Part shown: piece by piece, positions 7,801 to 31,611 of the stretch
How the letters are laid out: every line of letters starts with the position of its first letter
How positions within the stretch are numbered: position 1 is the first letter of the stretch
IMG/VR virus record: IMGVR_UViG_3300004369_000081
Location: 1-31,611 of that record
Source of the DNA: a virus
Strand: one strand, 5' to 3'
DNA: 31,611 bases
Made by a program: the position numbers and the translations under genes
Notes under the pieces: model-generated
What the model was told of the DNA's origin: nothing
What the model saw: only the letters and a program-made list of their open reading frames with translations
The model's database searches: none

Positions 7801-10800
7801 TTAAATCCATATTATAGAATTAATGGACAATCAAATTTAGCTGATTTATCATTTAGATATAGTATTGGTGAAGTGGTAGAGGTTAACGTTAATGATGGTG
7901 GTAGTGGATTTTCTTCTACGCCAACACTAGAATTGTTTAGTCAAAATGGTGGATCTGGCGCTACATTTGACATAGAAATTGAAAGAAGATCTTTAATTGT
8001 TGGTGACACTGTAAGCTCTGGATCTTCCACAGCAAAAATTCTTAATATAGATATAGCATCATCAACTATCGAACTACTTGTTACCAGTGGTGCATTTAAA
8101 GTTAATGACGTTCTATTGAGTTCTGACAACCGTCAGTACGGCACGATTGTGGAAGTTAATACTGCACGTGCTTATGCGAAATCTTCTCCCTATGGAAATA
8201 TTAGTGAAAAATTTATCGGTACAGTTGGTTTTATAAGTGATGACTATCAGAAAATAGAGGATAATCTTTATTATCAAGATTGGTCCTATTCTATTGTAAA
8301 CCAAAGAAATACTAAAGAATGGGGAAAGGAAGTATTAGAAAATACACATCCATCTGGATTTAGATTATTTGGTAAACAAAGACTCCACAGTAGAAAATCT
8401 CTTCTTGGAAGATCTCAGAACATTGTTAGAAGTGCTGTAACTTTCAAGGCTTCTATTTCTAGTTTACTTAACGCATCGGTTAAAACACCTCCATGTAAAA
8501 AACAAATAATTTGGATTGATACATCTCCAAATCCTTATGTTTTATATGATATCATTTATGGTAATCAAAGCGAGGCGTTAGGTCTTGTCATTGAAGTTGG
8601 TGAAAATTACATTATTGTTGATCTTTATGATAAAGAGGTTGAAATTAATGAATTTATTATTAATGTACTAAGAGTTCTACCAATATCTACTACAAGTTCT
8701 ACAGATAAACTTCTTTTGAATGTAAATGGTATCTTACAAGAACCATTTACTAGTTATACAGTAAGCGGTTCAAATATTGAACCATCTTTCCCACCATTCC
8801 CATTAGATGAAATAACCTCTTATAGTTTAACAACTCCATTTACTGATATTACTTCATCTGGTGTTAATTCTGGAAATAGGATTAACTTAACTGTTGACGG
8901 AAATCCTTATAGTGTTTCTGATAGAAATAAATTATTGGTTTCTCTGAATGGAGTCATTCAAAGAAATACAAATCTCACTATTGTTGGTACGAATAATAAT
9001 ATTATTGAATTTGGTACTAGTATTCAAGATACACCAAATTTTGTTTTATATCATCCACAGTTAACTCCTCTATCTTTTACTGGTTCTGCTGGTACTACAT
9101 TTGATCTTGGATTCACACCAGCTGATGATTGCCAATTGTTAATCTTTTTTGTTGGTGTAAATCAGTCTCATTTATTAACAGATTATAGTATTAGTGGTAG
9201 TACAATAACATTCCCCAGCAGTGTTGATCAATCTGAAATTTTTGGGTGGTACATTGACGAGACAGTTGTTTGTGAAAAAATTTCTGTCAGCGGAGTATAT
9301 GACCAACAGGTAAAGGGTAAGAAATTAATTTGTAATGCCGAGAAAAATGTAACTCTCAAGATTTTCTCCGATAATGTCAAAAAACCAAATGGATTCTTTG
9401 AATTAGAAAAAGAAAATCTTGATGGAACTTTATATGTTGACGGAAATAAAGCATATGGTTTTGGATCTAGATTTAAATATTCCAACCCAGAATATTCGAC
9501 AAGTTATGTTGAGGTAATCAATGATATTTCTGGTCAATTCAATGGCTCTACAACCACCTTTGACCTAACTATTAATGCCGTAGATCCATATATCCCAAAT
9601 GATGGCGAAGACTCCTTAATGGTAACACTAGATGGAGTCATCATACAGAAATCTCAATATAGTATTACTGGGTCTCAAATTAATTTTGTAACTGCGCCTG
9701 CTAACGGGGTTGAGTGTTCTATCAGAGATTTTGTTGGTGCATATCAAGCAAACTACAGTACTCGATTGGGAGCAGAGTTAGATCAATTTAATATTTTCAA
9801 TGGTTCTAGAACCAGATTCAATTTATCTGATAATGGAGTTCCAGAAACTATTAATAATAATACAGATGTATTTACTGTTAAAAACAATGTTCTTTTGAGA
9901 CCAGATGTACATCTAAATGCAATCGATTCTAGAACAAATGTACAGCTACAAATTGTATCACAAAATAAAATTGATTATACAGTTCCACCAATAACTACAG
10001 ATGTTTATAAACTAATGTCTTTTAACAGACAGTTAGTTCCTGAAAACCACAGAAACTGGGTTCTAGACAGAAATGAACACTTTGATGGCGTTAGAACTAC
10101 GTTTACTTTACTCCATAGTTTTGACGCAGATTGTGATGATCTGGTCGGTGAAGATCCAAGAGTTGAGAGTTTGATTGTTATCAGAAATGGTGTTTATCAA
10201 TATCCAACAACAGACTACACTCTAATTGATCCAGTAGATCCTAATGATATCAACAGTGGAAGTGGATCTTATAGAATTCAATTCGTCGATCCACCAAGAT
10301 CAACTGAAGATGTATTCATTCTATTCACTGAGGACACTGCTAATTTCCAAGACAGAACAGATGAACTAACTCAAACCAGCTCTACGGTTTTATCTTATAC
10401 TACTGCAATTGCTAATCCATCGACAATGGTTCCATTTGTCTATGTTGATGGTGTATATCAAGATCAAAACTCTTATGTTTGGGACGGTGCCGCAAACACA
10501 TTAACTTTTGTTGGCACTAATTTACCTACACTCGCAACTGATCAGGTTGAGTTTCATGCAAAACTTGGTACTCTCAGACCACAAAATGTTTACACTGACA
10601 TTCTAAATGCCTGGTTGGTTGTACTACAAAGAAATAATCACAATGAAGTTCTTGTACCAACTGTAAATAATACATTTACAGTAACTCAAAGATCTGGTTC
10701 CACAACTATTTCTGGTACTGATGTAGTCAATATTGTCCAACGCAGTGGCACACTGACGATTGGATCTAATCACTACAGAATCACCAATCTAGATCTAAAT

Positions 10801-12897
10801 GCATTTGTAATGCATGATGATCCAGCGAATACTTTCGTTGCATTTGATGGTGTAGTTCAAGAACCTGGAGTTGCTTACGATCATAGTGGCGCTGGAAGTG
10901 CAATTCCTTCATCTACTCTTGGAAACGGACTAACATATGACAATATGTCAATTCCTATGGGAGTTGGATACCTTGCTGCGATTGATATTGTCGAGTTTGA
11001 CGATGAACTCAATAGACAGTATTCCACTGATGAGATCAATCAAGTTTACGATGGATCTAGAACTAGATTCAGACTTCAATTGGATGGAATCAAGTATACC
11101 AACTACACTGCTCATGAAGATATTATCGTGTCTAAGAACAATGTTCTTCTACACCCAGGAGTTGATTATACTGTAACAAATCCAACTGGAGTATTGTCCG
11201 ATCCAACAAAGGGATGTATCGATTTCACCGTTGCTCCTGTAGCAAATGATGATATCTGGATGGTTGGTATGCATGATAATGAACTAATTACCTTAACACC
11301 AGTAACTACACAGATTTACAACACCAGTAGAGCACTTAGTGCTGCAGAACAGGAGTCGATTATCTTTGTTCAGAACGATCATACAAAGTATGGTCTTGCA
11401 AGAGGTGCAGAATTTACTTCTACAACTCAGATGAACTTTGATACCGCAACTACAACGGGTACTCCATTCGCTATTTTGACAACTACGGGTAAAGTTTTGG
11501 ATAGAATCCATACACCATATGATAATTCCAGAACAGAGTTTAATCTCTTCTTGGATGAAGAAAACTTCATTCCATCTGGTTCTTTTGCAAATGATTCTAT
11601 CATAGATCCAAGAAACTTATATGTAACCAAGAACGGTATTATTCTTACTCCGATTATTGATTACAATCTAACTGGAACCATTGACTCTAGAATTATTTTT
11701 ACAACTCCACCAGCACCATCAGACAACATTTTCATTGAAACACATGGTTTAATAAAACAATTAGATTCTGTTGTTGGTAATGGATCTACAACATATAATC
11801 TTACCGATTCTTCTAGTACTTATTATCCAGATGCTCTAATTGGAAGACCAAGAGAACTAGAGAACCAGATTATTGCTGTTAGAAACGGTTTGATTCTAGA
11901 TCCTCTTAAAGATTACTATGTTTACAATGATAAGATTGTATTTACATCTTCCCAAACTGCATCGGATACTATCAGACTTTATGATCACATGAGTCTTGCG
12001 TCTGATATTGAGGTTGAATCTTATAGTCAACAAGTTGATGTTGGTGAATATATTCAGATTCCAGGGGAATCTGAAAGAAGACAGGTTACAGCTGTACATT
12101 CTCCAACCGTTATGGAAGTAACAACTCCAGCCGGTTTGGTTTCTCCATCTGGATTGTCCGCAACGCCAACTATATCCAATGGCAATTTGACTGGAGTTAC
12201 AGTAACTTCTGGTGGTCGTGGTTATCCAAGAAGAATGAAGTTCCGTACATATGGAATTGGTAATAGTGCTTCAGCAAACTCTTATATCGATCCTATTAAG
12301 GGTGGTGAAATTAAAACCAACGTTGTTGTTGATTATGAGGGACACAATCTTGCAAATACGACATTAGTACCAACTTATGAAACTTATGTTGTTAGAGATG
12401 TAGTTTTAAGTTCTAGTAATGTATGTTTTGGAACTAAACTGTCGTCAAATATCTCTGATTCTGATACAACAATTCCTGTTTATGGGACCAGCATGGCATT
12501 TGCAAGTAACATCACTATTACAATTACTTCCACTGGTGGTGCTGGTGCTATTTTACAGCCTTTCGTTGTTAACGGAAGATTGGTCAATGTTGATATTGAA
12601 AATGGTGGGTCTGGATACAATGATTTAGATATAGTATTAACTGTAAATGATGGTGGTGGTAGTGGTGCCGTATTGGAACCAACACTAGATGCTAATGGAA
12701 CTATTACTAATATCGAAATCACCAATGAGGGTATTGGATATGACTCATTTAGAGCATTTATCAACAATGAAGTAATTGAGTATACCACCCACAATTCCAC
12801 AGAATTGAAAGGTGTTTCTAGGGGTATTGCAAGTACATCACCAGCAGCTGCTTCCTCTGATGATAGAGTGTTGTTTGCAGATTGTGAACAACCATAA
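1876..12897 (+). CDS. Giant virion structural protein in the T4 gene 7 slot (about 3673 aa)
   Basis: A single open frame of about 3673 residues between gp6 and gp8, where T4 carries gene 7 (gp7 is about 1030 aa). I chose ATG 1876, which makes an ATGA overlap with gp6, over the in-frame GTG at 1870. The N terminus (QFPQFVREDSSTFIEFIKSY, then FYSSKGSLNSHRILFRILF near residues 195-215) resembles large structural proteins of marine T4-like phages. Visible modules: a 'DTTI-GFP-RG' beta module near residues 78-125 and 499-545 and, split, at the C terminus; about 13 GGSGY-type repeats; a YHYH-like domain near 1515-1612; and about 13 'NG(V)xQ...DY.ISG' modules between residues 888 and 3365. No membrane segment or catalytic motif was recognised. 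From position and composition it is probably an extended baseplate wedge or wedge-to-fibre protein; that role is inferred. Confidence 0.8.
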   Translation: MKFLVDKTVDLSNLIENQFPQFVREDSSTFIEFIKSYYQSQELKNQPLDIAENLIEYYNVSHFRKSELIENTTLSVNITETDTTITVADTTGFPEKGYIQIDSEIIYYASKTSTTFVNCVRGTSALVLESIPFSEVLLKSSVSDVHESGVSVVNIAYAYTSEFLRRIKTEIAVGIPETLVEELEISTFLTNVRTFYSSKGSLNSHRILFRILFNDKKIRFKIENRGSGATLKVINFDGAIGNAQVLSGGSGYDDRTNQNGDLLNPPIVEIFGSGNGINIANKTAVIKVTKIINGRIPIGSTIDSSYNGITITDAGLNYVGPITAFVREKDFGEEELVTTVSGNGSGIVESWDFNTNELTLTNIIGFFNNNDELVSSSGEQARGYVDYFEFVSQDPDIEFPKDYLLKPSSSNFVGKKIARLEVISGSLDEIENDKITPPSYLTLIQKQDTIFGLKNVSIESGSISKIDNIGYAGYEIDIDINDDFNNLYLPASTQLTHEYTVGDTKVTVNDATGFPVTNGIIYIDGFLVEYKERTANQFLDCITTQTSGSKIVNTEVVSYGRYKTRRQYSLSEYVKSGQQRYYGDNLYESKTTGKTSSVDYPTHKIGTRKVGSIEWNYIGDSKVDYFLTAFVGTPNVTATGEEGDLYIFVDSARKLSVGQSIIGSGIATDAKISSINGKKVTLSLPNVSKVSGGCIASIATVRVVGLVENINIEKSGSLFTEQIYELDDKNYKDFEGIEYSSWNINSNHILDADGDYIGVTSVYDNTENNNQGNVYVSSSGIPPYTSAKNRTLNNVFDGYTNAFLTNITAPIDIDSLFIFRNAVIQDSLSDFSIINDVLNFTTVPLPQEELYIRYFSTPGQVDRISVSQGSTTSEVVLSTTNSLSRDEIFVFLNGVLQVGNSFTWNDTTKVATFGSQIVDVTTDDIIVFSINGANVLDSITTSSSLTYTLQDGGSNFTSATTDSVIVAINGVVQRPNSSYTISGSTLTLTEVNSGVELTVIEVGSGVVLTTLSTLNGINLDRNNYKLQKLFKRIPYPSSIINDNIIRKSKSLTPVETKKALGITIDGIQYQSLKGNSTEYGAVESLTIGNGGNYFIPYTNSGSFDKSNYPQVILKKNGGEQSDIVITENIIEIAGSITKINFNLFEQSIISNLTGFTSKPKIEVINNNPSNSITSAEFRSAVLDVGFKNGNIDNILVLDPGFGYVESPTIRISGGGKFTTYDLPFVNSGNGEILVQMSGPIISSKSSSNTIILTNELGSQFTSNPLVSIDDGSEAVITVTVSNGKIVATQILNPGKNYHIEPELQITSTNLLGSGAVLRPVLSNGQIIDVIIINPGTGYIIPPTIIAKNISVNSVVSSQLKKWTFNIANRFITGVDIFGGYVFDEQFGDNYTVESFTPDSLVIKETFTVNDIVVGMEVTHPRIPVGTFVSRVDVATRTVNLSKSGLNVNTDFLLIGDKVSILQGDNRIRGSLKVAEVLPTTFPESRLKYQYLQLTNTKNFENHYGIVSTEHSKIVGWSYDGHPIYCKYGYTNALDKTSGISEQTSSYRLKGLRTNGPSLVDYPMGSFIEDYEYIEGLGTLDQYNGRFSVTPEFPNGAYCYFMVSEYPFVIGPTYFSDPDCYNLGQNRTNDKIPSILTLVNDPNNDQFPEQIKNVNKTLLKTSVLRGGSVDSIYVENKGSNYKTGDYLVFDNSETSGSGVVAYVSSVESPPVISSTVDNDKKEITFNFSGPHNVSENDVIYIDIKKASSNTIINLDLLTTPISTLNNKPIYSLVLDKSKLYRLEFGSARKYNLSFDSLNFNPYHQENIVLGSDHFIIDPEKIPSKLFVHTNTLIIELSVVTSPLVSRYVVKSSTTNSFVLPLNEKITSVPINSLDFGIRSRGATGPIKTINIVNGGSGYKKLPAVVGVDSETGSGAILSASSETIGSIKRISYVSYGDQFYGSRNAKNYVKLPITVKVKSNFTIKNIKVKDAGQNYFLNPYYRINGQSNLADLSFRYSIGEVVEVNVNDGGSGFSSTPTLELFSQNGGSGATFDIEIERRSLIVGDTVSSGSSTAKILNIDIASSTIELLVTSGAFKVNDVLLSSDNRQYGTIVEVNTARAYAKSSPYGNISEKFIGTVGFISDDYQKIEDNLYYQDWSYSIVNQRNTKEWGKEVLENTHPSGFRLFGKQRLHSRKSLLGRSQNIVRSAVTFKASISSLLNASVKTPPCKKQIIWIDTSPNPYVLYDIIYGNQSEALGLVIEVGENYIIVDLYDKEVEINEFIINVLRVLPISTTSSTDKLLLNVNGILQEPFTSYTVSGSNIEPSFPPFPLDEITSYSLTTPFTDITSSGVNSGNRINLTVDGNPYSVSDRNKLLVSLNGVIQRNTNLTIVGTNNNIIEFGTSIQDTPNFVLYHPQLTPLSFTGSAGTTFDLGFTPADDCQLLIFFVGVNQSHLLTDYSISGSTITFPSSVDQSEIFGWYIDETVVCEKISVSGVYDQQVKGKKLICNAEKNVTLKIFSDNVKKPNGFFELEKENLDGTLYVDGNKAYGFGSRFKYSNPEYSTSYVEVINDISGQFNGSTTTFDLTINAVDPYIPNDGEDSLMVTLDGVIIQKSQYSITGSQINFVTAPANGVECSIRDFVGAYQANYSTRLGAELDQFNIFNGSRTRFNLSDNGVPETINNNTDVFTVKNNVLLRPDVHLNAIDSRTNVQLQIVSQNKIDYTVPPITTDVYKLMSFNRQLVPENHRNWVLDRNEHFDGVRTTFTLLHSFDADCDDLVGEDPRVESLIVIRNGVYQYPTTDYTLIDPVDPNDINSGSGSYRIQFVDPPRSTEDVFILFTEDTANFQDRTDELTQTSSTVLSYTTAIANPSTMVPFVYVDGVYQDQNSYVWDGAANTLTFVGTNLPTLATDQVEFHAKLGTLRPQNVYTDILNAWLVVLQRNNHNEVLVPTVNNTFTVTQRSGSTTISGTDVVNIVQRSGTLTIGSNHYRITNLDLNAFVMHDDPANTFVAFDGVVQEPGVAYDHSGAGSAIPSSTLGNGLTYDNMSIPMGVGYLAAIDIVEFDDELNRQYSTDEINQVYDGSRTRFRLQLDGIKYTNYTAHEDIIVSKNNVLLHPGVDYTVTNPTGVLSDPTKGCIDFTVAPVANDDIWMVGMHDNELITLTPVTTQIYNTSRALSAAEQESIIFVQNDHTKYGLARGAEFTSTTQMNFDTATTTGTPFAILTTTGKVLDRIHTPYDNSRTEFNLFLDEENFIPSGSFANDSIIDPRNLYVTKNGIILTPIIDYNLTGTIDSRIIFTTPPAPSDNIFIETHGLIKQLDSVVGNGSTTYNLTDSSSTYYPDALIGRPRELENQIIAVRNGLILDPLKDYYVYNDKIVFTSSQTASDTIRLYDHMSLASDIEVESYSQQVDVGEYIQIPGESERRQVTAVHSPTVMEVTTPAGLVSPSGLSATPTISNGNLTGVTVTSGGRGYPRRMKFRTYGIGNSASANSYIDPIKGGEIKTNVVVDYEGHNLANTTLVPTYETYVVRDVVLSSSNVCFGTKLSSNISDSDTTIPVYGTSMAFASNITITITSTGGAGAILQPFVVNGRLVNVDIENGGSGYNDLDIVLTVNDGGGSGAVLEPTLDANGTITNIEITNEGIGYDSFRAFINNEVIEYTTHNSTELKGVSRGIASTSPAAASSDDRVLFADCEQP
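4540..11965 (+). repeat. About 13 NG(V)xQ beta modules in the giant protein
   Basis: A recurring pattern 'FdGsrT.F.L ... V..NGV.q.P..dY.isG..I.F..aP...D.i' is seen around 4543, 4766, 8720, 8938, 9148, 9617, 9880, 10180, 10435, 10837, 11130, 11625 and 11878. Examples are FLNGVLQ, AINGVVQRPNSSYTISGSTL, TLDGVII, RNGVYQ, KNNVLLHPGVDYT and KNGIILTPIIDYN. The copies are divergent in DNA, so this is an old protein repeat. Between 8700 and 11965 they form a nearly continuous array, probably an elongated beta shaft (inference). Confidence 0.7.
6400..6720 (+). other. YHYH-like domain inside the giant structural protein
   Basis: Residues about 1510-1615 of the giant protein contain GWSYDGHPIYCKYGY, then SSYRLKG, then LDQYNGRFSVTPEFPNGAYC and YFMVSEYPFVIGP. 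This order (DG-PIY-YGY, then LD..NGR, then the aromatic YHYH-position motif, here AYCYF) is what I recall of the YHYH domain, which occurs in bacterial secreted proteins and in marine phage structural proteins. The His positions of the name-giving motif are replaced here. Its function in phages is not established. Confidence 0.6.
12487..12774 (+). repeat. GGSGY repeat pair splitting the C-terminal module of the giant protein
   Basis: The giant ends with a module that begins SDSDTTIPVYGTSMAFASN and resumes at FINNEVIEYTTHNSTELKGV. Between them lie two GGSGY-type units (DIENGGSGYNDLDIVLTV and ITNEGIGYDSF). Elsewhere in this same protein, and in the 2041-aa protein, the DTTI and EI.Y...RG halves are much closer together. 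The arrangement therefore looks like repeat units inserted into another module. Confidence 0.5.
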
Positions 12898-14538: not shown

Positions 14539-17500
14539 ATGCAAAAGACCAACCTAAAACTGGCGCCATATTTTGATGATTTTGATAAGTCAAAGAATTA
14601 CCATAAAATACTTTTTAAACCTGGGCTTCCAGTTCAAGCTAGAGAGTTAACACAAGTTCAATCTGCATTGCAAAATCAGATTGAAGAATTTGGAAATCAT
14701 ATTTTTAAAGACGGATCTGTAGTAATTCCTGGACAGGTTGGTTATGATTTAGAGTATCATGCAGTTTTGGTACAAAATTTAGTTAATGGTATTGAAGTAG
14801 AAACATACAGAGCGTCTTTGGTCGGAAAGACACTTGTAGGTCAAATATCTGGGGTAGAGGGTGTTGTAGTTAATACAATCAGTGTTGCCGAATCTGAAAA
14901 GTCAACCCTAACGTTATATGTAAAGTATACAAAGAGTGGAGTATCTAGTACAGGCAATCAGAAAACCAGATTTGATAATAATGAGATTCTTGTGCAAAAA
15001 GGAACAACAACTCCTTTAGCTATTACAACCCTACAAAATGCGTCAGCTTATACTGGTAGTATTGCTTATATAACTTCTGGTGTCTATTATATTCGTGGAT
15101 ATTTTGTTCAGGTAGATGACCAATTTGTCATTCTTGATCAGTATAATAATAAACCATCGTATAAAATTGGTTTAACTGTAACTGAAGAAATTGTTTCTTC
15201 CAATGAAGACTCAACTCTGTTTGATAATGCAAATGGATCTACTAACTTTGCCGCTCCTGGAGCTGACAGATTAAAAATTTATACAACTCTGTCTAAAGAT
15301 ATTACGTCTTTTTCTGATAATGGTAACTTTATTGAGTTACTTAGACTTAAAGATGGCAATTTAGAAGAAATAGTAGAATCTAGTGTATATAATGAATTAG
15401 AAAGAAATCTAGCAAGAAGAACTTATGATGAGTCTGGTGACTATACAATCAATGACTTCACTATTAAAGTGAAAGAAACTTTAGATGATGGAGAAAATGA
15501 AGGTGTTTATCCAGTAAATTCTGTATTGGAAGATGGTAGAACAGTTTTAAATAGAGTTCCAACTACCACAGATCCAGAAAACTCAATTAATGGTAAGGAT
15601 TACTATACTATTGAGGTCTCTCCTGGTAAAGCATATGTCAGAGGATATGAAATTAATAATGTTGCTAAAAAATATGTTACTGTTCAAAAACCAAGAACAA
15701 GTGTAGATATTAATAATAAAGCAGCAAATATTGATATTGGACAATATTTAACATTTACATCTGCTGTAGGATCTGTAGATACCAATGAACTTCTTTCTTT
15801 AAGAAACTCTAGTAACACAAATATTGGTAAGGCGAAAGCGGTAACAATAACAGGATCTAAACTTTATATTACAGATTTAACAACTTATACATCGATAACT
15901 GTACCAGGAACAACCACTGGTTTGGTTGAAGGAGATTTTATTTTTTCCACCAAAGGGTCTAGAGGTGTAGTTAATAGTGCTTCTGTAAGTGGAAGTAATA
16001 CTATTATTGTTTTGAGACAAACTACTGGTAAATTCCAACAAAATGATGTAGTATCAAATAGCAGAAATAGTATCACATATACCATTTCTGCTGCTACAGA
16101 TTATAATATTAGTCAAATTTCTAATATTATCAACGGTTCTGGATTTACAGCGAACTTTAGTTCACCAAAACTACAGTCACAAAACAAAGACTTATTTGTA
16201 ACTGCTTCAGAACTTCCTGTAAATACTGCATCGGATTTTTCCTATGTTAAGGTTGATAAGGTTTCGAAAATAGTTTCGAACAATGAAGTAACAATCAGTG
16301 CCACAAATAATTTTACTCCTCTAACTAGTGGGTTTACAATTTTATCTTCTGCTGGACAACATACAGCAACAGCGTCAATTAACGGAAATACTTTAGTACT
16401 GTCAAATATCAGTCCAGTTGTAACTGGTTCGGTTGATATTTACTACAAGTTAAGAGTAAATAACACCACAACCAGAGAAAAGGAGAATAAAAAATATAAC
16501 TTCCTTTCGTTACCAAATAAGAAAGATTCTACATTTACAGTCTATGGTAATAGACTGGATGATAAAGAAATCAATTTGAAATTCCCAGATGTATATAAAG
16601 TACATAGAGTACATGAAGCTATCGTACCTGGGGTATCAGACAATGATATGTTTGATAGAGTTTTAATTAATGATGTTAATGGTATTGTAACTGGTGATAT
16701 TTTAAAATTAAATAATGTTGTTGCAAAAGTAATCAGTATTGATGGAAACACATTACATGTAATTTATATCAGCAGTGTTAAGTTTACCGAGGGAACAAAT
16801 TTAACAACACAAGTTGTAGTAATATCTAATCCATCTCTAGTTGGTAGATTTTTAACTGAGGTAGTCCATGGTCAGTATAAAGACATTACTACTAATTTTG
16901 CTCTGAACAAAAATGATACCGATGAAACTTATAGAATTTCTAAGTTAACAAGACTGGGGAATAGACCAACTCCACAAAATAAAGTAACTGTTGTATTTGA
17001 CTATCTTTCCCATTCCCAGACAAATAACGACTTTTTCTCGGCAAATTCTTTTGACTATACTGAAATAGAGTATAAAAATATTCCAAATACCTATAACGGA
17101 TATTCATATACCAATATCTTTGATTTTAGACAATCTGTCACACCTACACAATCAACTGGATTGGGGTCTGTAACTGCTCCATTTGTGTGCAGTAATCCGC
17201 TGTCTGCGTTTGACTTATATTCAAATACAAAATCAGCTGCTCCGTTCCCATATCCATCCGAATATATTAGTTATGACTATAATTATTATTTGGGTAGAAT
17301 TGATAGATTATTCTTGGATAAGAGTGGAGAATTTAAAGTTTCTGTAGGTGCATCTTCTGTATCACCAAACATTCCTATTAACATTTCCAACGCATTGTTG
17401 CTTTTTACACTAAATGTACCAGCGTACTTAAAAGATGTAAAAACTGTAAAAACTACTGCTGAGAAAACAAAGAGATTTACGATGAAGGACATCGGAAATC

Positions 17501-20500
17501 TTGAAACTAGAATTGATAATATTGAATACTATACCACACTGAGTTTGTTGGAATCCGATACTAACAATTTGAGTATTTTAGATTCTAATGGAAATGATAG
17601 ATTTAAAAATGGTTTCTTAGTAGATAATTTTAGGTCTGATAATTTTGCAGCTACAAACAATATTGATTATAAGGTTTCTATCGATACCAATAATGGTTTA
17701 GTTAGACCTTATCCATATATTAATAATATTGGATTAGATTATGATGTTACATTATCTGGTTCCAACGAAACTGTTGGAGAGTTAAGGAAGAAAGGAGACT
17801 TTTTACTACTACCTTACACAGAAGTAACTTATGCTTCTAACCAATATGCAAGTAGAGTAGTAAATCTAAATCCATTTAATACGATTACTTGGGTTGGTGA
17901 TTTCCAAATTTCTCCATCTAGAGATGTTTGGTATGACACACAAAGAACAATTCCAGAAAATGTACCAGAGATTGATTTAACTGGACCAATCAAGTTCCTT
18001 TATGATCGAAGTGGTGCTGATGGCAATCAGTGGGGAAGTTGGAATAATACTGGTTCTGCAAGAACAGGTGGTGGAACAAATATTTTCCAACAAAGAAATG
18101 GTGTAAATAATGAATTTAGTTCTGTAACTCAGAATATTGATGTTGGTGATAGAATTAATTCTTTAGAAAGCATTACATTTGCTAGATCTATAGTAATTGA
18201 TTGTTTATCTTCAAGAATGAAACCAAATACAGAATTGTATTTCTTCATTGATGGTAGAGATTCTAATGGATCAATTTATCCAAAACTCTTTAGGAATGTA
18301 ACAAGAACAGTAAACAGCACCTCTTTTGTTGTTGGAGAAACTATTACATTAGAACCTTTTGATAATTCTAATACAGCATCTTTAAGAAGATTATCCGCAA
18401 CACTAGTCTCCCCTGCTGATTATGATTCCACATTATCATCTTCTTATAGTTCTGCATCTACTGTAATTGCAATCAATAATGTACAGGTTGAAGATGGTAC
18501 GATATTAAATCCCACAAGTCTTGGTAGTAAAATTAAATTTACTGGACAAACATCTGGTGCTATTGCCGAAGTAGAATTAACAAATCCAAGAATCACCACC
18601 GATGATGAGGGTATTGTCAGGGCATTTATTCTATTACCACAAGATACAATTGAAACTGGTCAATCCAGATTTGTACTGACAGATCAAGTTACCAATACTA
18701 CAATTTCTGGTATTTCTGATACTAATGCAGTAGCTTCTTACGATTCGGAAGGTACTCTCTTGGACATTACAAGTTTGAGTCTAGACTTTAAGTTGCCAGT
18801 TATCACAACGACACCAATTAGTGAGACTAGAACGGTCTTTATCCCAGATCCCCCACCACCACCACCTCGTCGTGGAGACCCACTAGCACAATCTTTCTAT
18901 GTTGATCAGCCTGGTGGTATGTTCATCAGTTCTATCGATTTATATTTCCAAAGTAAGGATGATACTGTTCCCGTTACAATGGATATCAGAACTATTGAAA
19001 ACGGACAACCAACAGAAAATATTCTTCCATATAGTACAAAAACTCTAAAAGCATCAGAAGTTTCAACATCTGCAAATGCTACAAGTGTAACAACATTTAC
19101 TTTTGATACTCCTGTATATGTAGCTGAAGGAAATGACTATGCATTTGTTGTCAGGACTAGATCTTTAAATTATAAAATTTGGGTATCCAGATTGAATGAA
19201 GTTGATGTAACTACAAATCAAGTTATTAATAAACAACCCTATCTCGGAAGTTTGTACAAATCTCAGAATATGAGTAGTTGGACCGCTGATCAATTCGAAG
19301 ATATTAAATTTAATATCAATAGGTCTGAATTCTCTGTCGGAACCTCATATAAAGCATCTCTGAAGAATCAAAAAATTTCTACTATTAATCTACCAGCAGA
19401 CTCACTTTTCATGACATCTAATAGTACAACTATTAGAATTTTACATCCTAATCATTGTATGCATACAATCCAGAATTATGTTGATATTTCTGGCGTAGTC
19501 TCTACATCACCAAACGTAAAACTCGTTACCAATATGGGTAATACCCAGACTACTGCGGATACAGTAATTACTTTGAGTGATGGCACATATGTTCCAACAC
19601 TAGTTAATAATACAAATATCAGTGATACAAACTTTGGATATCTCAAAATCGATAATGAAATTGTTTCCTATAAATCAGTAAACGGTAATACGGTTACAAT
19701 TCCTGCTGGTGGTCGCGGATTAAATAATACTGCTATTACAGCACACAATACAAATTCCATAGTCCAAATCTATACGTTAAATGGAATTCCACTGACACAA
19801 ATCAACACCAGACATAAATTGACAAATGTCATTGATATGGATAGATTTGAGATCAGTACCCAGTCAAAAGCAAATAGTACATTGCAGACTGGTGGTGATT
19901 CTATTTTCTCGTCTAGAAATCTACAATACGAGAGTATTACTCCAAGAATTAACAATATTGTTCTCTCTGGAACATCTCTCAATTATAAAGTTAATACTAT
20001 CACTGGTTCTAGTATTTCACAGAAAACAACTGGTACATTTGTGAAATCTGGTGGTTTATCGGTATCCAATTTAGAAATTAATGAATTAGATTCTTCGAAA
20101 GTAATCCTTTCCGAACCAAACCAAACAAATTATTATGGCAGCGATCCTTCTTTCGAATTGGAAGTAGAAATGTCTACTACAGTTTCTTCTATTAGTCCAC
20201 TAATTAATATTTCTGGATCATCTGTCATCACAGCAATGAACAGGATTAATGCAATTAGAGATAATGATGGGGAAGTTGATGTAAACCTGTCTAAGGATTT
20301 AGAACCATCTGGCAGTTCACATGATGCTGTTTATGTAACTAAGAAAGTTAGACTTGAAAATTCTGCAACTTCTGTGAAAGTACTTTTCGATGGTATCAGG
20401 AAACAGGGAGTAGATATTAAAGTATTCTTAAAATATAAGAGAGATGATGAAATTGAAGACTTCAACCTAACAGAGTATGTTGAAATTCCATCTGTAAATT

Positions 20501-20664
20501 ATCCTCTTTCGCCAATAGATGGTAAAACCTTCAGGGCGTTTGAATATGAAATATCCGATCTAGAACAATTTAAGGAATTTGCCGTAAAAATTGTGATGAT
20601 TGGAGATGATCAAAGTAATGTTCCTTTGATTAAAAACCTTAGATCTATCGCTCTCGCAGTTTGA
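14539..20664 (+). CDS. DUF4815-type virion structural protein (2041 aa), gp9/gp10 slot
   Basis: A 2041-aa protein placed where T4 has genes 9 and 10. The N terminus (LAPYFDDFDKSKNYHKILF, then KPGLPVQARELTQVQSALQN and FKDGSVVIPGQVGYD) fits the DUF4815 family of large phage structural proteins. Near residues 1437-1443 is a run of six prolines followed by RRGDPLAQSF. This opens a beta-sandwich-like region (ISSIDLYFQSK, VTMDIRTIENGQP, then VAEGNDYAFVVRTRS) that I recall from marine-phage baseplate/fibre-connector proteins. Residues about 1671-1754 hold a DTVI...NEIVSYK...GGRG module like those of the giant protein. It probably links baseplate wedges to fibres or binds the host surface; this is inferred from position and family. 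Its stop overlaps the next start (TGATG, 20662-20666). Confidence 0.75.
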   Translation: MQKTNLKLAPYFDDFDKSKNYHKILFKPGLPVQARELTQVQSALQNQIEEFGNHIFKDGSVVIPGQVGYDLEYHAVLVQNLVNGIEVETYRASLVGKTLVGQISGVEGVVVNTISVAESEKSTLTLYVKYTKSGVSSTGNQKTRFDNNEILVQKGTTTPLAITTLQNASAYTGSIAYITSGVYYIRGYFVQVDDQFVILDQYNNKPSYKIGLTVTEEIVSSNEDSTLFDNANGSTNFAAPGADRLKIYTTLSKDITSFSDNGNFIELLRLKDGNLEEIVESSVYNELERNLARRTYDESGDYTINDFTIKVKETLDDGENEGVYPVNSVLEDGRTVLNRVPTTTDPENSINGKDYYTIEVSPGKAYVRGYEINNVAKKYVTVQKPRTSVDINNKAANIDIGQYLTFTSAVGSVDTNELLSLRNSSNTNIGKAKAVTITGSKLYITDLTTYTSITVPGTTTGLVEGDFIFSTKGSRGVVNSASVSGSNTIIVLRQTTGKFQQNDVVSNSRNSITYTISAATDYNISQISNIINGSGFTANFSSPKLQSQNKDLFVTASELPVNTASDFSYVKVDKVSKIVSNNEVTISATNNFTPLTSGFTILSSAGQHTATASINGNTLVLSNISPVVTGSVDIYYKLRVNNTTTREKENKKYNFLSLPNKKDSTFTVYGNRLDDKEINLKFPDVYKVHRVHEAIVPGVSDNDMFDRVLINDVNGIVTGDILKLNNVVAKVISIDGNTLHVIYISSVKFTEGTNLTTQVVVISNPSLVGRFLTEVVHGQYKDITTNFALNKNDTDETYRISKLTRLGNRPTPQNKVTVVFDYLSHSQTNNDFFSANSFDYTEIEYKNIPNTYNGYSYTNIFDFRQSVTPTQSTGLGSVTAPFVCSNPLSAFDLYSNTKSAAPFPYPSEYISYDYNYYLGRIDRLFLDKSGEFKVSVGASSVSPNIPINISNALLLFTLNVPAYLKDVKTVKTTAEKTKRFTMKDIGNLETRIDNIEYYTTLSLLESDTNNLSILDSNGNDRFKNGFLVDNFRSDNFAATNNIDYKVSIDTNNGLVRPYPYINNIGLDYDVTLSGSNETVGELRKKGDFLLLPYTEVTYASNQYASRVVNLNPFNTITWVGDFQISPSRDVWYDTQRTIPENVPEIDLTGPIKFLYDRSGADGNQWGSWNNTGSARTGGGTNIFQQRNGVNNEFSSVTQNIDVGDRINSLESITFARSIVIDCLSSRMKPNTELYFFIDGRDSNGSIYPKLFRNVTRTVNSTSFVVGETITLEPFDNSNTASLRRLSATLVSPADYDSTLSSSYSSASTVIAINNVQVEDGTILNPTSLGSKIKFTGQTSGAIAEVELTNPRITTDDEGIVRAFILLPQDTIETGQSRFVLTDQVTNTTISGISDTNAVASYDSEGTLLDITSLSLDFKLPVITTTPISETRTVFIPDPPPPPPRRGDPLAQSFYVDQPGGMFISSIDLYFQSKDDTVPVTMDIRTIENGQPTENILPYSTKTLKASEVSTSANATSVTTFTFDTPVYVAEGNDYAFVVRTRSLNYKIWVSRLNEVDVTTNQVINKQPYLGSLYKSQNMSSWTADQFEDIKFNINRSEFSVGTSYKASLKNQKISTINLPADSLFMTSNSTTIRILHPNHCMHTIQNYVDISGVVSTSPNVKLVTNMGNTQTTADTVITLSDGTYVPTLVNNTNISDTNFGYLKIDNEIVSYKSVNGNTVTIPAGGRGLNNTAITAHNTNSIVQIYTLNGIPLTQINTRHKLTNVIDMDRFEISTQSKANSTLQTGGDSIFSSRNLQYESITPRINNIVLSGTSLNYKVNTITGSSISQKTTGTFVKSGGLSVSNLEINELDSSKVILSEPNQTNYYGSDPSFELEVEMSTTVSSISPLINISGSSVITAMNRINAIRDNDGEVDVNLSKDLEPSGSSHDAVYVTKKVRLENSATSVKVLFDGIRKQGVDIKVFLKYKRDDEIEDFNLTEYVEIPSVNYPLSPIDGKTFRAFEYEISDLEQFKEFAVKIVMIGDDQSNVPLIKNLRSIALAV

Positions 20665-21500: not shown

Positions 21501-24311
21501 ATGAGCACGTTCTTAAAGATCAAAAGATCTAGTACTTCACCAACAGCAGTACCAACTAACCTACGCAATGGTGAACCAGCGTATAGTTATGGTCTTGGTT
21601 CATATCCCGACAAGGTAACTGCTGGTGGTGGTTCTTCGGTCAATGCTGGTGGTAAACTATACATCGGTCAAGGTACAGAAGATGTAAACGGCCACGCCGC
21701 GAATAGAGATATTGTTGGTGGTAAGTATTTCACCGACATGATGGACCATCAACATGGTACTCTGACGGCAAACTCTGCATTAATTATTGACCAGGATTCT
21801 AAGATTGATATTTTTAATGTCGATAACCTGAGATTTGATGCAAACACCATTTCTTCTACTAATGCTAATGGTGACATCATCCTAGATCCAGCTGGTTCTG
21901 GTGAAATCAATATTGTAGATGACACATTCCTCTCGTTCGGTTCTGATAAAGACGCAAAAATTGAGTACGACGAGAATGGAACAGACCGTGTTCAAGTAAC
22001 TGGTGCTAATTGGACTTTTACAACTGATATTTCCGTCACTGGTAACCTTTCCGTTACTGGTACTCAGTCTTTCTCTATCCCAGATAATACTGCTAACGCT
22101 TACCAACTTTTTGAGGGTGGTAATGTTTACTTCAATGTTACTACTACAGATAACGCTGAACTAACCACACTAGGTAATAGTTTAACCAGTGTAAACGTAG
22201 TTGTAGAAGATAATGTTGCAAATGCTTTCCTTGTTAAGGAAGGTACTTCCGAGTATATCGCTCTTGACACAACAAATGGTTCTGAACTAATTACGTTTAG
22301 CACTGGTGATGTTGATATCGACAATGATCTTAATATTGATGGTGGAGATCTAACTACCAATCAGACATCATTTAATCTTCTCAATACCAACGCTACTACA
22401 GTTAACTTTGCTGGTGCAGCTACCTCAGTTGAGATCGGTGCTGCAACTGGTACAACGAATGTCAACAATAATTTAGATGTTGACGGTGATGTAAATATCG
22501 ACGGTGGCGACCTCACAGTTTCTACTGCAACATTTAATCTTGTTAATACAACTGCAACTACAGTTAATTTTGCTGGTGCGGGTACAGATATTCAAATTGG
22601 TGCCTCTACTGGTACTACAAACGTTAATAATAACTTAGATGTAGATGGTGATGTAAATATTGATGGTGGAGATTTAACTGTTTCTACGGCAACATTTAAT
22701 CTTGCTAATACAACTGCAACCACCGTTAATGCTTTCGGTGCTGGAACTGCAATTGATATTGGTGCTACGACTGGCACCACAAGTATTAATAATAACTTAG
22801 ATGTTGATCTTGACTTAAATGTTGATGGTGGAGACATCACTACCAATCAAACATCCTTCAATCTTCTCAACACTAATGCAACTACCGTTAATGCTTTCGG
22901 TGCTGCTACTACTGTTGAGATCGGTGCTGCTACTGGTACTACTAATGTCAATAATGACCTTGACGTTGATGGTGATGTAAATATCGATGGTGGTGACCTA
23001 ACAGTATCCACAACAACCTTCAACCTTGCTAATTCGACTGCAACTACAGTCAACGCATTCGGTGCTGCAGCAACCATTAATATGGGTGCTTCTGGTGGTA
23101 CAATGACAGTTGCAAATGATGTAGTTGATTTGGATGGTGATCTGAATGTTGATGGCGCAGATATTACTACCAATCAAACTACATTCAATTTACTTAATAC
23201 AAATGCAACTACGGTCAATGCATTTGGCGCAGCGGCAACTGTAAATCTTGGTGCTTCAACTACGATTCTAGATCTTGGTCATATTCGTATCCAAGGTGCT
23301 ACGATTTCTACAGACAACACCAATGCTCAAGACCTTGTTCTTGATCCATTCCCCGATGCAGGTGATGCAGGTGGTAACGTAATCATCCGTGGTAACCTTC
23401 AAGTTTCTGGTACTACCACAACTGTCAACTCGACTGAGATGTCGGTTAATGATCCAGTCTTCACGATTGGCGATACAGTTTCCTCGAAAACAATCACCGC
23501 AAATGCTTCCTCTGGTGTAAATGCACTTCAGGTTGATAATCCTGCTTCTATTGTAGAGGGTGCTACAATTACTGCTACTGGTATTCCTAATGGTACAACC
23601 ATCAGTAACGTAGAGATTGCATTTAACGTATCTGCAAACTTCTCCTCTGCTCCAACTGCAGGTGACACAATCTGGTTCTTTGATGGAACAAGTTTTGCTG
23701 AGATCGGTACTTTTGTTTCTCAGACTGCATCTCTTGTAACCATTGATCTTGCATCGAACATTTCTGTTCGTGGTGATGATTTCTACAATGGAAATTCTTT
23801 ATCCACTGTAGGAACTGGTACTCCAACTGGCGGACAACTTGCATCTGTTACCAAGGTAAATACTAAGGTATTCAATACAACAACCTTAGAACTATCGGCA
23901 AATACAACCGCTGGTTTCTCTGTTGGTGATGAAGTCACAATCAGTCAGGCATCTGACGACAACATGGACCGTGGTATCCAATTCAAGTATCTTGATGGAA
24001 CCACTTCTACTCTAGGTTTCTTCGGTTACGATGAATCCACAACCACTGAAGGTGAAAAGTATTTCACCTATATCCCAGATGCAACTAATAATGCTAACGT
24101 GTTCTCTGGAACCAGAGGTGCTGCATACTTTAAGACCGTCAAACTAGATGATGGTATCTTAAATGGTGTTGCTTTCTTTGATCAATTCAAGAGACTCACT
24201 AGAACAGTAGCTGCCGGTACATCCGATGCAGATACATCCAACCAAATTCTGACCGTTAATGGATCTGGTGTTCCAGTTTGGACCACTACTTTTGATGGCG
24301 GAACATACTAA
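21501..24311 (+). CDS. Repetitive tail fibre protein (936 aa)
   Basis: Probable adsorption fibre. The N terminus (FLKIKRSSTSPTAVPTNLRN, GEPAYSYG, then GGKLYIGQG and DHQHGTLTANSALIIDQDSK) is the attachment-type region found in marine T4-like phage fibres. Two 'NAY/F..EG...Y' units follow near 22090 and 22215. Bases about 22324-23265 encode six beta repeats of about 48-54 residues. After these come a region around 'NLQVSGTTTTVNSTEMSVND' and a C-terminal domain ending PVWTTTFDGGTY. AGGAAA (21490-21495) is a good ribosome site. No chaperone-like cleavage domain was recognised. The C-terminal part is the most likely receptor-binding tip, by analogy only. Confidence 0.8.
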   Translation: MSTFLKIKRSSTSPTAVPTNLRNGEPAYSYGLGSYPDKVTAGGGSSVNAGGKLYIGQGTEDVNGHAANRDIVGGKYFTDMMDHQHGTLTANSALIIDQDSKIDIFNVDNLRFDANTISSTNANGDIILDPAGSGEINIVDDTFLSFGSDKDAKIEYDENGTDRVQVTGANWTFTTDISVTGNLSVTGTQSFSIPDNTANAYQLFEGGNVYFNVTTTDNAELTTLGNSLTSVNVVVEDNVANAFLVKEGTSEYIALDTTNGSELITFSTGDVDIDNDLNIDGGDLTTNQTSFNLLNTNATTVNFAGAATSVEIGAATGTTNVNNNLDVDGDVNIDGGDLTVSTATFNLVNTTATTVNFAGAGTDIQIGASTGTTNVNNNLDVDGDVNIDGGDLTVSTATFNLANTTATTVNAFGAGTAIDIGATTGTTSINNNLDVDLDLNVDGGDITTNQTSFNLLNTNATTVNAFGAATTVEIGAATGTTNVNNDLDVDGDVNIDGGDLTVSTTTFNLANSTATTVNAFGAAATINMGASGGTMTVANDVVDLDGDLNVDGADITTNQTTFNLLNTNATTVNAFGAAATVNLGASTTILDLGHIRIQGATISTDNTNAQDLVLDPFPDAGDAGGNVIIRGNLQVSGTTTTVNSTEMSVNDPVFTIGDTVSSKTITANASSGVNALQVDNPASIVEGATITATGIPNGTTISNVEIAFNVSANFSSAPTAGDTIWFFDGTSFAEIGTFVSQTASLVTIDLASNISVRGDDFYNGNSLSTVGTGTPTGGQLASVTKVNTKVFNTTTLELSANTTAGFSVGDEVTISQASDDNMDRGIQFKYLDGTTSTLGFFGYDESTTTEGEKYFTYIPDATNNANVFSGTRGAAYFKTVKLDDGILNGVAFFDQFKRLTRTVAAGTSDADTSNQILTVNGSGVPVWTTTFDGGTY
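22324..23265 (+). repeat. Six-copy repeat in the tail fibre, two unit types (A-B-B-A-B-A)
   Basis: Units of up to 54 aa (162 bp) start near 22324, 22465, 22627, 22790, 22945 and 23112. Each has 'D-DGGD/AD', then 'TFNLxNTxATTVN', then 'GA.T.v.iGA'. Type A has TTNQTSFNLLNTNATTVN (units 1, 4, 6); type B has TVSTATFNLVNTTATTVN or close variants (units 2, 3, 5). This is a coding repeat, probably a triple-stranded beta shaft. Confidence 0.85.
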
Positions 24312-27993: not shown

Positions 27994-28407
27994 ATGTCCG
28001 ACCCTTTTGATAAATTAAATCAAGCTTTTAATGTAGAAGCGGAGATTGTACCTGAATCCAAAAAACCAGAGATAGAAGTAAAAGAAAAGAAAGACAGAGA
28101 TATTACAGATGATTACGAATATAGCAGGGCCCAACTTTACAATCTCGTAGAGAAGGGTCAGGAAGCGATCCAGGGCGCGTTGGAGGTTGCTCAGAGTAGT
28201 GATCACCCAAGAGCGTATGAAGTCGCTGGCAACCTCATTAAACACGTCGCAGACATCACAGAAAAACTTCTAGACAACCAGAAAAAACTCAAAGAAATCG
28301 AACAAGAAAAAACACAGAAAGGACCATCTACAGTCAACAATGCAGTATTCTTTGGTTCTACTTCTGAACTTCAAAAAATGCTTAAACAACAGTTATCTGA
28401 TAAATAA
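27994..28407 (+). CDS. 16: Small terminase subunit gp16
   Basis: Probable small terminase, which in T4 binds DNA and stimulates the gp17 packaging motor. It is 137 aa (T4 gp16 is 164). A charged, probably disordered N terminus (KKPEIEVKEKKDRDITDDYE) leads to a helical core (YSRAQLYNLVEKGQEAIQGA, SSDHPRAYEVAGNLIKHVAD, then LLDNQKKLKEIE). The 'pRAyEV...Li' block is a known gp16 signature of T4-like phages. It starts 2 bases after gp15 stops, as expected for the 13-14-15-16 order. The large terminase gene is not seen in the remaining 3.2 kb. Confidence 0.85.
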   Translation: MSDPFDKLNQAFNVEAEIVPESKKPEIEVKEKKDRDITDDYEYSRAQLYNLVEKGQEAIQGALEVAQSSDHPRAYEVAGNLIKHVADITEKLLDNQKKLKEIEQEKTQKGPSTVNNAVFFGSTSELQKMLKQQLSDK

Positions 28408-30410: not shown

Positions 30411-30447
30411 TAAATTTACACTATTTTTTACTAAATAGGTTATACTG

Positions 30448-30468: not shown

Positions 30469-30687
30469 ATGTACGGTGCCTATTTTGTTGTAATATTCTT
30501 TCTTATCCTGGTTGCATACGCAGGATATGAGGAAACTATGAAATTATTTGCTTTCGCAGATTTGCAAATTCGATATGCATTTATCCGATTGCAAATGAAG
30601 TTTATGGAAAGGAGGCTCAAGAGGCAGCTCGTTAAGGATACAACCGAGTTTGAAAAGTTCCTTAAGGAGTACAAAGATGAACGATAG
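30469..30687 (+). CDS. Small membrane protein with basic coiled-coil tail (72 aa)
   Basis: Unrecognised. Residues about 4-20 (AYFVVIFFLILVAYAGY) form one membrane-spanning segment. The rest is a charged helix rich in Arg and Lys (RLQMKFMERRLKRQLVKDTT, then EFEKFLKEYKDER), so the tail probably faces the cytoplasm. It is the first of a run of tiny overlapping genes and overlaps the next by 11 bases. Its position after a gap with inverted repeats suggests a separate transcription unit. Confidence 0.65.
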   Translation: MYGAYFVVIFFLILVAYAGYEETMKLFAFADLQIRYAFIRLQMKFMERRLKRQLVKDTTEFEKFLKEYKDER

Positions 30688-30922
30688 AGAGCTGTCCGAT
30701 CTTTCTGTTGAAAGAAAGGAATGCCCTAAATGTAGTGCATTGTGGATCAACGGACAACACTATTGGTCTGGGACAGGAAAGAAAGGAAATGAGTTGGATC
30801 TTGCTGGTTTGGTGTGTAATCGCCTTGGTGATGACACTTGTATCAATCCATGCGTAGGCAAGGAAGGTGGTGTTACTTGGGAAAAAAGACTAACTGAGTT
30901 AGAACAGGACTATCCAGAATGA
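30677..30922 (+). CDS. Zinc-ribbon-like small protein (81 aa)
   Basis: I start it at ATG 30677 because AAGGAG (30664-30669) lies seven bases upstream; an in-frame TTG at 30650 would read nine extra residues from inside the previous gene. Cysteines at 16, 19, 47, 55 and 59 (ECPKCSALWINGQHYWSGTG, then GLVCNRLGDDTCINPC) suggest a zinc-binding fold. I recall this 'CPKC..LWI.G.HYWSGTGK' protein as a conserved hypothetical of marine T4-like phages; no function is known to me. It overlaps the next gene by ATGA (30919-30922). Confidence 0.75.
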   Translation: MNDRELSDLSVERKECPKCSALWINGQHYWSGTGKKGNELDLAGLVCNRLGDDTCINPCVGKEGGVTWEKRLTELEQDYPE

Positions 30923-31128
30923 ACCCCATAATCTTAGTTGGATGTTTCACACCACTCATCATCATCTTCATCGTGATGAAACTTTCTGTATGGATTGAAG
31001 CCGTCAACGCCGAATCGGATTATGTCAGAGAAGATTCCAAACGACCACACGGACCATATGTGGCAAATCCATATGCAGACGTTGACGAAGAGGAAGAGGA
31101 ATATGGAGATCGCACAGACTATAGATAA
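30919..31128 (+). CDS. Small membrane protein with acidic tail (69 aa)
   Basis: Unrecognised. Residues about 3-27 (PIILVGCFTPLIIIFIVMKL and following) are a membrane segment. The tail is polar and ends in a strongly acidic stretch (YADVDEEEEEYGDRTDYR). It begins in an ATGA overlap, with AGGA (30906-30909) upstream. The DNA of the acidic stretch (GAGGAAGAGGA, 31090-31100) doubles as the ribosome site of the next gene. Confidence 0.6.
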   Translation: MNPIILVGCFTPLIIIFIVMKLSVWIEAVNAESDYVREDSKRPHGPYVANPYADVDEEEEEYGDRTDYR

Positions 31129-31249
31129 CGCTTTGTTTGAATGGTATTCAGAGAGAGGATTGGAAGTTCCTGACTGGAAAATAAAAAAAGATCCACAGTG
31201 GTGGATTGATTACCTAATTAGTTTAGGAATTGATCCAAACAATCCATGA
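31103..31249 (+). CDS. Small Trp-rich protein (48 aa)
   Basis: I start this at ATG 31103 directly after the purine-rich GAGGAAGAGGA; the longer in-frame reading from 30995 would lie almost wholly inside the previous gene. The product (MEIAQTIDNALFEWYSERGL, then DPQWWIDYLISLGIDPNNP) has four Trp in 48 residues and looks helical. Function unknown. Its stop overlaps the next start (ATGA, 31246-31249). Confidence 0.6.
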   Translation: MEIAQTIDNALFEWYSERGLEVPDWKIKKDPQWWIDYLISLGIDPNNP

Positions 31250-31464
31250 ATCTTTTACTTCGCCCACTAGAAGACGTTACTGATGTAACATGGAGTATCA
31301 TTATTTCTATGATACTCCTTTTATTTGGAGTCGCATTTTACATATATATTATTATGCAATTAGCATATAAGGAGTTAGAAAATGGCCAAGTCCGCGAACA
31401 AGGGCAAGAAGGGTCAATCGCAATCGAAACAGAATCAAGGGAACGCAACAGCGAAGAAAGCTAA
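31246..31464 (+). CDS. Small membrane protein (72 aa)
   Basis: Unrecognised. Residues about 15-38 (TWSIIISMILLLFGVAFYIY) form a membrane segment, followed by a charged tail (ENGQVREQGQEGS...). It is coupled to the previous gene by ATGA. Its last 83 bases overlap the 34-aa gene at 31382 in another frame, so the tail after residue 45 may be constrained mainly by that gene. Confidence 0.55.
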   Translation: MNLLLRPLEDVTDVTWSIIISMILLLFGVAFYIYIIMQLAYKELENGQVREQGQEGSIAIETESRERNSEES

Positions 31465-31486
31465 AAACGGTGGTAAGAAAAAATAA
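31382..31486 (+). CDS. Lysine-rich 34-aa peptide gene
   Basis: A short frame of 34 codons. AAGGAG (31369-31374) sits exactly seven bases before the ATG, one of the best ribosome sites in the window. The peptide starts MAKSANKGKKGQSQSKQNQG and ends NGGKKK. It contains almost only Lys, Asn, Gln, Gly, Ser, Thr and Ala, and no acidic or aromatic residues. The codons are more GC-rich than the surroundings, although it overlaps the end of the preceding membrane protein. It ends three bases before the start of a probable ATP-grasp gene. It may be a small nucleic-acid-binding protein or a peptide acted on by the ligase (inference). Confidence 0.6.
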   Translation: MAKSANKGKKGQSQSKQNQGNATAKKAKNGGKKK

Positions 31487-31489
31487 TAT

Positions 31490-31611
31490 ATGAAACTTTG
31501 GATGCTTGGTAATCGTCTCACTACTGAGATGTATGAACGTGAAAGATTTATTGAAGAAGCAGATAAATATAGTATCGATTTTAATTTAGTCTTTGCCGAC
31601 GAAATCGATCT
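31490..31611 (+). CDS. Start of a probable ATP-grasp ligase (RimK/glutathione-synthetase-like), cut by window end
   Basis: Only 40 residues are visible: MKLWMLGNRLTTEMYERERF, then IEEADKYSIDFNLVFADEID. This looks like the N-terminal pre-ATP-grasp strand-helix-strand of RimK-type carboxylate-amine ligases ('MK.W.L..R......R..EEA......'), which occur in marine T4-like cyanophages. RimK adds glutamates to the C terminus of ribosomal protein S6 in bacteria. The ATP-binding part lies outside the window, so the call is tentative. The gene starts three bases after the lysine-rich peptide gene and has only a weak ribosome site, suggesting coupled translation. Confidence 0.45.
   Translation, partial: MKLWMLGNRLTTEMYERERFIEEADKYSIDFNLVFADEID

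Follow-up and report, generated by a model that had tools for sequence, protein, structure and literature searches.

Bacterial RimK glutamylates the C-terminus of ribosomal protein S6, and glutamate is the terminal residue of acceptors such as LysW. Phages also make small basic proteins late in infection, of which the T4 internal proteins and those with protamine-like or histone-H1-like tails are examples. In Pseudomonas, the available text of two reports describes the addition of glutamates by RimK to the C-terminus of RpsF and a glutamate chain in the crystal that contacts several arginines (PMC10092738, PMC7343187); the enzyme holds this acidic chain through residues that include R64, R189 and N262 (PMC10092738, available text). 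The hyperplastic region of cyanomyoviruses lies between g15 and g18 and, in the portions available of the two papers describing it, carries variable cargo upstream of terL, including RimK (PMC2984593, PMC6722890). In the RIM8 hyperplastic region, RimK is the variable gene C18, and variation in gene content accompanies recombination (PMC6722890, available text). The locus studied here resembles this arrangement in its position and cargo, but differs by a mini-gene that is not mentioned in the available portions of PMC2984593 and PMC6722890.

The window, i.e. the whole stretch of viral DNA that was analysed, is 31,611 nucleotides long (IMG/VR record IMGVR_UViG_3300004369_000081), and the features that matter are listed in the table below. 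The earlier note on this sequence had described a 34-residue peptide gene with a good ribosome site, ending 3 bp before the next gene, and we find the open reading frame, the AAGGAG motif and the 3-nt gap between the stop codon and the next ATG (31490) all to be present. The peptide contains 11 lysines in 34 residues, has a net charge of +11 and lacks Asp and Glu altogether. Among the 107 short ATG-initiated ORFs (25-60 aa) of the window, it is the only one with at least 30% lysine; this, together with its recurrence in many phages and the strong purifying selection described below, argues that the ORF is not a chance occurrence. The 72-aa ORF in front of it would encode a membrane-like protein, judging from the sequence itself. 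In a different frame, the final 83 nt of this ORF also code for the mini-protein, a computed overlap that the earlier note does not mention. The mini-gene fills the exact space from a ribosome site, itself within the membrane-ORF tail, to the start codon that follows. Going upstream on the same strand, the first TAAATA is met at 30432, before all the small genes of the cluster. Taken by itself, this motif is weak, since TAAATA is not enriched across the window (44 found vs. 51 expected).

Features of the window discussed in the text (positions are those of the 31,611-nt stretch)
Feature	Position	Strand	Details
Small-terminase-like gp16 gene, bordering the hyperplastic region on its left	27994..28407	+	S-PM2 gp16 match, -3388..-2993 from peptide start
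TAAATA, perhaps the core of a T4-like late promoter for the small genes from 30469 to RimK	30432..30437	+	31 nt before ATG 30469
72-aa hypothetical protein	30469..30687	+	phrog_1181
81-aa hypothetical protein	30677..30922	+	phrog_484
69-aa hypothetical protein	30919..31128	+	phrog_2832
Small ORF (MEIAQTIDNALF...)	31103..31249	+	just upstream; neighbour in several relatives
72-aa ORF, one hydrophobic stretch and acidic tail	31246..31464	+	phrog_10723 (6.7e-24), phrog_814, phrog_25130
AAGGAG, mini-gene ribosome-binding site	31369..31374	+	7 nt upstream of ATG; read directly
34-aa lysine-rich mini-protein gene	31382..31486	+	ATG start; peptide = MAKSANKGKKGQSQSKQNQGNATAKKAKNGGKKK
RimK-family ATP-grasp ligase gene, 5' end	31490..31611	+	40 aa visible, open at window end; 80-90% identity to cyanophage RimK

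The right-hand gene is cut off at 31611, where the record stops, and the ATP-grasp domain of its product would lie beyond the window. At 80-90% identity, the 40 residues that can be read have counterparts in 17 cyanophage records, among them proteins of S-RIM32, S-RIM8, S-RIM12 and S-CAM8; most are annotated as 'ribosomal protein S6 glutaminyl transferase', and one (S-RIM12_WH_05_0310) is covered over 14 residues only. In this last isolate (locus L007, near 4001-4042), RimK has apparently been deleted except for its first 14 codons, with the same neighbours as in the intact S-RIM12 isolates. The full-length cyanophage relatives are 296 aa long and match PF08443 with E-values of about 1e-50 to 1e-54; four of them score 236.8-244.2 bits on TIGR00768 (RimK-family alpha-L-glutamate ligase, cut-off 143.4). 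The membership of the window gene in the RimK family rests on its identity over 40 residues to these relatives, and bears out the proposal of the earlier note that this gene encodes a RimK-like ATP-grasp ligase. Two of the relatives fall into phrog_2599 ('ribosomal protein S6 glutaminyl transferase'), and the solved structures closest to the phage proteins are alpha-L-glutamate ligases and RimK. Full-length relatives (E-value 1e-40 or better) occur in 16 of 50,697 phage records, all of them cyanophages.

The RimK gene varies in genome position, being found also after gp23, and after psbD and before purC. On the S6-specific RimK equivalog model NF007764, the relatives score 156.9-162 bits, below the cut-off of 331, and S6 as the substrate is for this reason a matter of family resemblance. 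In an alignment read by eye, the RimK of S-RIM32 has R, R and N at the positions of Pseudomonas R64, R189 and N262; the S68 position is not conserved, and S7 and R8 fall outside the local alignment. The phage gene would be a sporadic auxiliary gene that occupies several genome sites, and its product most likely glutamylates the ribosomal protein S6 of the host at the C-terminus. A short peptide gene adjoining an ATP-grasp gene is also reminiscent of graspetide/MvdC systems. However, the phage ligases score 30.0-39.4 bits on TIGR04185 (cut-off 425), the window peptide lacks acidic acceptors and the two genes do not obligately co-occur. Peptide composition, model scores and gene distribution led us to reject a graspetide/MvdC system, in agreement with the remark in the earlier note that a macrocycle through the peptide's own Asp or Glu is impossible.

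The mini-gene is a member of a family found at several genome sites, with at least 120 IMG/VR stretches matching one N-terminal pattern; this sample is arbitrary, and 119 of the stretches were used, L210 being omitted since it contains only the first bases of the peptide. The same pattern gave no match when 84,980 bacterial and archaeal species were scanned, each represented by a single genome, which speaks against a host origin of the peptide within the reach of a single N-terminal pattern that could miss more divergent host relatives. Members of the family start with MAKSANKGKKG, continue with a middle that varies through in-frame length changes and finish with KQNxGNATAKKAKNGGKKK; the invariant ends (MAKSANKGKKG and GNATAKKAKNGGKKK) are both basic, and a second form starts with MGKPKNKKGK. 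The peptide has no acidic, aromatic or aliphatic core. When all loci were scanned more loosely, 167 occurrences turned up that represent 56 distinct strings, with Asp and Glu absent from 55 of the 56; these strings were picked by tail motifs, which partly conditions their tails, and a few are frame or edge artefacts (L117, L079).

Selection on the family was strong, with a pN/pS of 0.02-0.065. Over the last 19 codons, pS was 0.68-0.72 and pN 0.014-0.045 in three genomic settings, and over the last 8 codons pN was 0, 0 and 0.005; these C-terminal codon tables are not conditioned on the search pattern, in contrast to those for the first 11 codons. Free change at synonymous positions combined with fixed residues indicates that the mini-gene is translated and that purifying selection on it is strong. 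The near-identical N-terminal DNA seen in the membrane-ORF setting might have suggested a DNA element conserved for its own sake, such as a packaging site, but synonymous change is free in the other settings, and the identity in the membrane-ORF setting is accounted for by dual coding.

The peptide matched no Pfam or PHROG family, and we found no publication containing the string NKGKKG or dealing with a lysine-rich cyanophage mini-protein. The mini-protein is therefore new as a described family, while the gene arrangement around it is ordinary. The records of S-RIM8 RW_01, S-RIM4, S-H35, S-SRM01 and DSL-LC03 give it no separate CDS, and that of DSL-LC02 lists it as a hypothetical protein. A T4 portal was found in 3 of 17 peptide contigs, all of which are fragments. 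In S-SRM01 (L307:2951-3139), a protein annotated as 'histone H1' is encoded about 2 kb from the peptide gene. The clamp-loader subunit gene of S-RIM8 (KX349285 125652-126056), and also those of S-RIM4 and S-H35, ends in LNKGGKKK, a peptide-like tail that is perhaps there by chance; this unrelated gene is matched by the C-terminal pattern with 2 mismatches and was excluded from the peptide counts.

When 134 copies were sorted by setting, 38 overlapped a membrane-like ORF as in the window, 57 followed a same-strand gene at -1 or -4 nt, the setting of the phrog_721-type cluster of 59 described below, and 39 stood alone, about 8 of these last being possibly misclassed. Some stand-alone copies are located after the small terminase gene (gp16) or gp23, or adjoin an opposite-strand psbA. 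A single membrane-like family with an acidic tail (phrog_721 and relatives) accounts for 59 of 131 upstream neighbours, and the peptide gene overlaps the preceding phrog_721-type gene by 1 nt in 55 of these 59 cases. Some of these proteins have a long acidic proline-rich tail (L098, L110, L170, L013:3585-3947 and similar ones) and could be partners of the peptide encoded directly behind them. Downstream, a small gene starting with MPREW (e.g. L009:4147-4422) is often next after the peptide (26 of 133 neighbours).

The sequence NATAAATA is reported as the late promoter of cyanomyoviruses in the text available of PMC2984593. Of the 35 distinct regions upstream of stand-alone copies, 27 have a TAAATA motif at a distance of 12-60 nt, its last base lying 19-25 nt before the ATG, compared to a control rate of 2.9% at 6,882 positions. 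Of the 8 regions without the motif, 7 resemble the phrog_721-tail setting by eye and L183 does not clearly do so. In six stand-alone copies (L100, L128, L129, L133, L153, L307), the distance from motif to ATG is seemingly only about 20 nt. A Shine-Dalgarno-like string is present in 6 of the 35 stand-alone regions and mostly absent. In the phrog_721 setting, TAAATA is found exactly 25 nt before the phrog_721-type gene in 18 of 41 distinct regions, and anywhere between -120 and +60 in 25 of 41. Stand-alone mini-genes, then, carry a motif resembling the T4-like late promoter. The membrane-ORF setting to which the window belongs has TAAATA within 60 nt of the peptide in just 1 of 30 cases, and the window copy would consequently be late by analogy. 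We infer its expression, like the biochemical functions of both products, from relatives and from composition.

The two genes of the window would be separate genes lying side by side in the hyperplastic region (g15/g16 to g17/g18) of a T4-like cyanophage. In S-RIM8 A.HR5 and S-RIM32, the membrane ORF runs directly into the start of a gene for an endonuclease. The peptide is found right behind the same ribosome site in S-RIM4, S-RIM8 RW_01 and several metagenome loci, where it is followed, with or without cargo, by the endonuclease; in the window locus, the endonuclease would lie past the window end. The cargo after the peptide is the MPREW small gene in S-RIM4, and RimK in the window and in loci L027, L041 and L063. 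The window RimK follows the mini-gene, whereas that of S-RIM8 RW_01 precedes it, in the order RimK, membrane ORF, peptide, endonuclease.

Complete genomes may have either gene alone. S-RIM4, S-H35, DSL-LC02, S-SRM01 and DSL-LC03 have the peptide without RimK, and S-RIM32, S-RIM12 and S-CAM8 have RimK without the peptide, as judged by two patterns that could miss a very divergent form; S-RIM8 RW_01 has both, and S-RIM8 A.HR1 and A.HR5 have neither. In 80 IMG/VR RimK loci, the peptide adjoins RimK in 12, in both orders, and occurs elsewhere in the stretch in 3 more. RimK was adjacent to the peptide in 0 of the 119 peptide-selected loci, among the matches listed, and present in the stretch of one, 3.5 kb away and on the opposite strand; another of the 119 (L133) shares its contig with a distant RimK locus (L092). 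Among 80 loci selected by the endonuclease, 18 had the peptide, 3 had RimK and none had both. The C-terminal peptide pattern was found in 4 of 15 long RimK contigs, and RimK in 1 of 17 peptide contigs, absences that count as weak evidence since all these contigs are fragments. The co-occurrence across phages that the earlier note had proposed to look for was thus largely lacking, five isolates having the peptide alone and three RimK alone.

The earlier note had proposed, from adjacency, that the peptide and the ligase are partners; in such a tagging pair, RimK would add one or more glutamates to the C-terminus of the mini-protein or to its lysines. Adjacency in both orders is what one would point to in its favour, as is an enrichment of the pair at the endonuclease/terL site, where the peptide is present in 12 of 19 RimK-bearing loci vs. 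17 of 65 RimK-free loci (p=0.005), or in 10 of 15 vs. 15 of 56 clusters once near-copies are collapsed (p=0.006), phylogeny being incompletely corrected for in both comparisons. The peptide-adjacent state, when mapped on a RimK tree with 84 rows, requires 6 changes for 'before' and 4 for 'after', so adjacency arose more than once. Given the independent distribution of the two genes, a partnership is not supported, although the residual enrichment at this one site keeps us from dismissing it outright. The lysine-rich C-terminus of the peptide is the same with or without RimK, with nearly invariant last 8 codons at the protein level in every setting, and a KKK end that is identical in both situations is unlikely to be a dedicated acceptor. 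Almost all peptide strings lack acidic residues, and yet the phage enzyme keeps the R, R and N of the acidic-chain site (PMC10092738, available text). We consider a tagging pair quite improbable; the mini-protein and RimK are probably not precursor and enzyme, and a weak functional link between them may still exist. A better account, and one that we think fairly likely as part of the best explanation, is that the pair came together only through recombinational exchange of blocks in the hyperplastic region, giving linkage without function. The presence of both genes in one S-RIM8 isolate and their joint absence from two others, the co-localisation of variable genes with recombination in this region (PMC6722890, available text) and a peptide-RimK junction that is identical in the window, L027 and L063, otherwise different loci, all agree with such an exchange. 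By itself, this leaves the enrichment of this particular pair unexplained, the pair being the only cargo so tested. We read the enrichment at the terL site as block recombination, but count it on the side of partnership.

The mini-gene could also be a translated leader or coupling element that delivers ribosomes to the next gene, with an incidental peptide sequence. It does sit directly on a ribosome site and end at or within a few nucleotides of the next start in several loci, and many copies overlap the preceding gene by 1 nt, as in the phrog_721-type cluster. Purifying selection at the protein level amid abundant synonymous change makes such a leader very unlikely, and stand-alone copies are headed by a late-promoter motif of their own and followed by a variety of genes. 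The main alternative as to function is a protein partner, since acidic-tailed membrane neighbours recur: the mini-protein might act on small membrane proteins with acidic tails, in lysis or membrane control, and not on nucleic acid. Both the phrog_721-type neighbours, mostly with their 1-nt overlap, and the copies lying within the acidic-tail region of another membrane-like ORF fit this idea. Conversely, the stand-alone copies, even allowing for those misclassed, include some after gp16 or gp23 or beside psbA with no such neighbour directly before them, and the acidic tail of the overlapped ORF may be no more than what lysine codons give in a different frame. We regard a membrane partner as unlikely. 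The reading we prefer, with a probability of roughly 0.7, is that a conserved, late, disordered and polycationic mini-protein has been inserted beside an independent RimK auxiliary gene, whose dedicated substrate it is not.

According to this preferred reading, the mini-protein would belong to a mobile, strongly conserved and late-expressed family. Most probably it would be an intrinsically disordered polycation that appears late in infection and has a polyanion as its target. Its composition is what suggests polyanion binding, and the candidates are RNA, the acidic tail of a protein, and DNA, either as it is packaged or inside the virion. We tentatively favour nucleic acid as the polyanion, at rather less than even odds, on the basis of composition, the late-promoter motifs and the absence of a hydrophobic core. 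As they are generally described, the small basic late proteins of phages are similar in being small, basic and late; the mini-protein differs in being much shorter and in matching no Pfam or PHROG family. It is conceivable, if doubtful, that this mini-protein is the first to be described from a family confined to phages, whose members would be mobile polycations of about 32-40 residues, expressed late, and would serve cyanophages as protamine-like condensers or assembly factors. Such proteins would have escaped notice because many gene callers miss genes of this length and because their high lysine content does not suit tryptic proteomics.

A true peptide-ligase pair would have meant a phage peptide-modification system, and the evidence points elsewhere. 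What emerges is a mini-gene that is very strongly conserved in many cyanophages and for the most part goes unannotated. It has late-promoter motifs, shows a pattern of insertion as a single gene, and can be tested in culturable phages. The S-RIM8 isolates with and without the block, together with S-RIM4 and S-H35, which have the peptide without RimK, form a natural comparison set. Elsewhere in the window, two very long ORFs of 3,675 and 2,041 aa (1870-12897 and 14539-20664) probably encode virion proteins, and a 936-aa ORF (21501-24311) contains repeated DVDGDVNIDGGDLT-like units.
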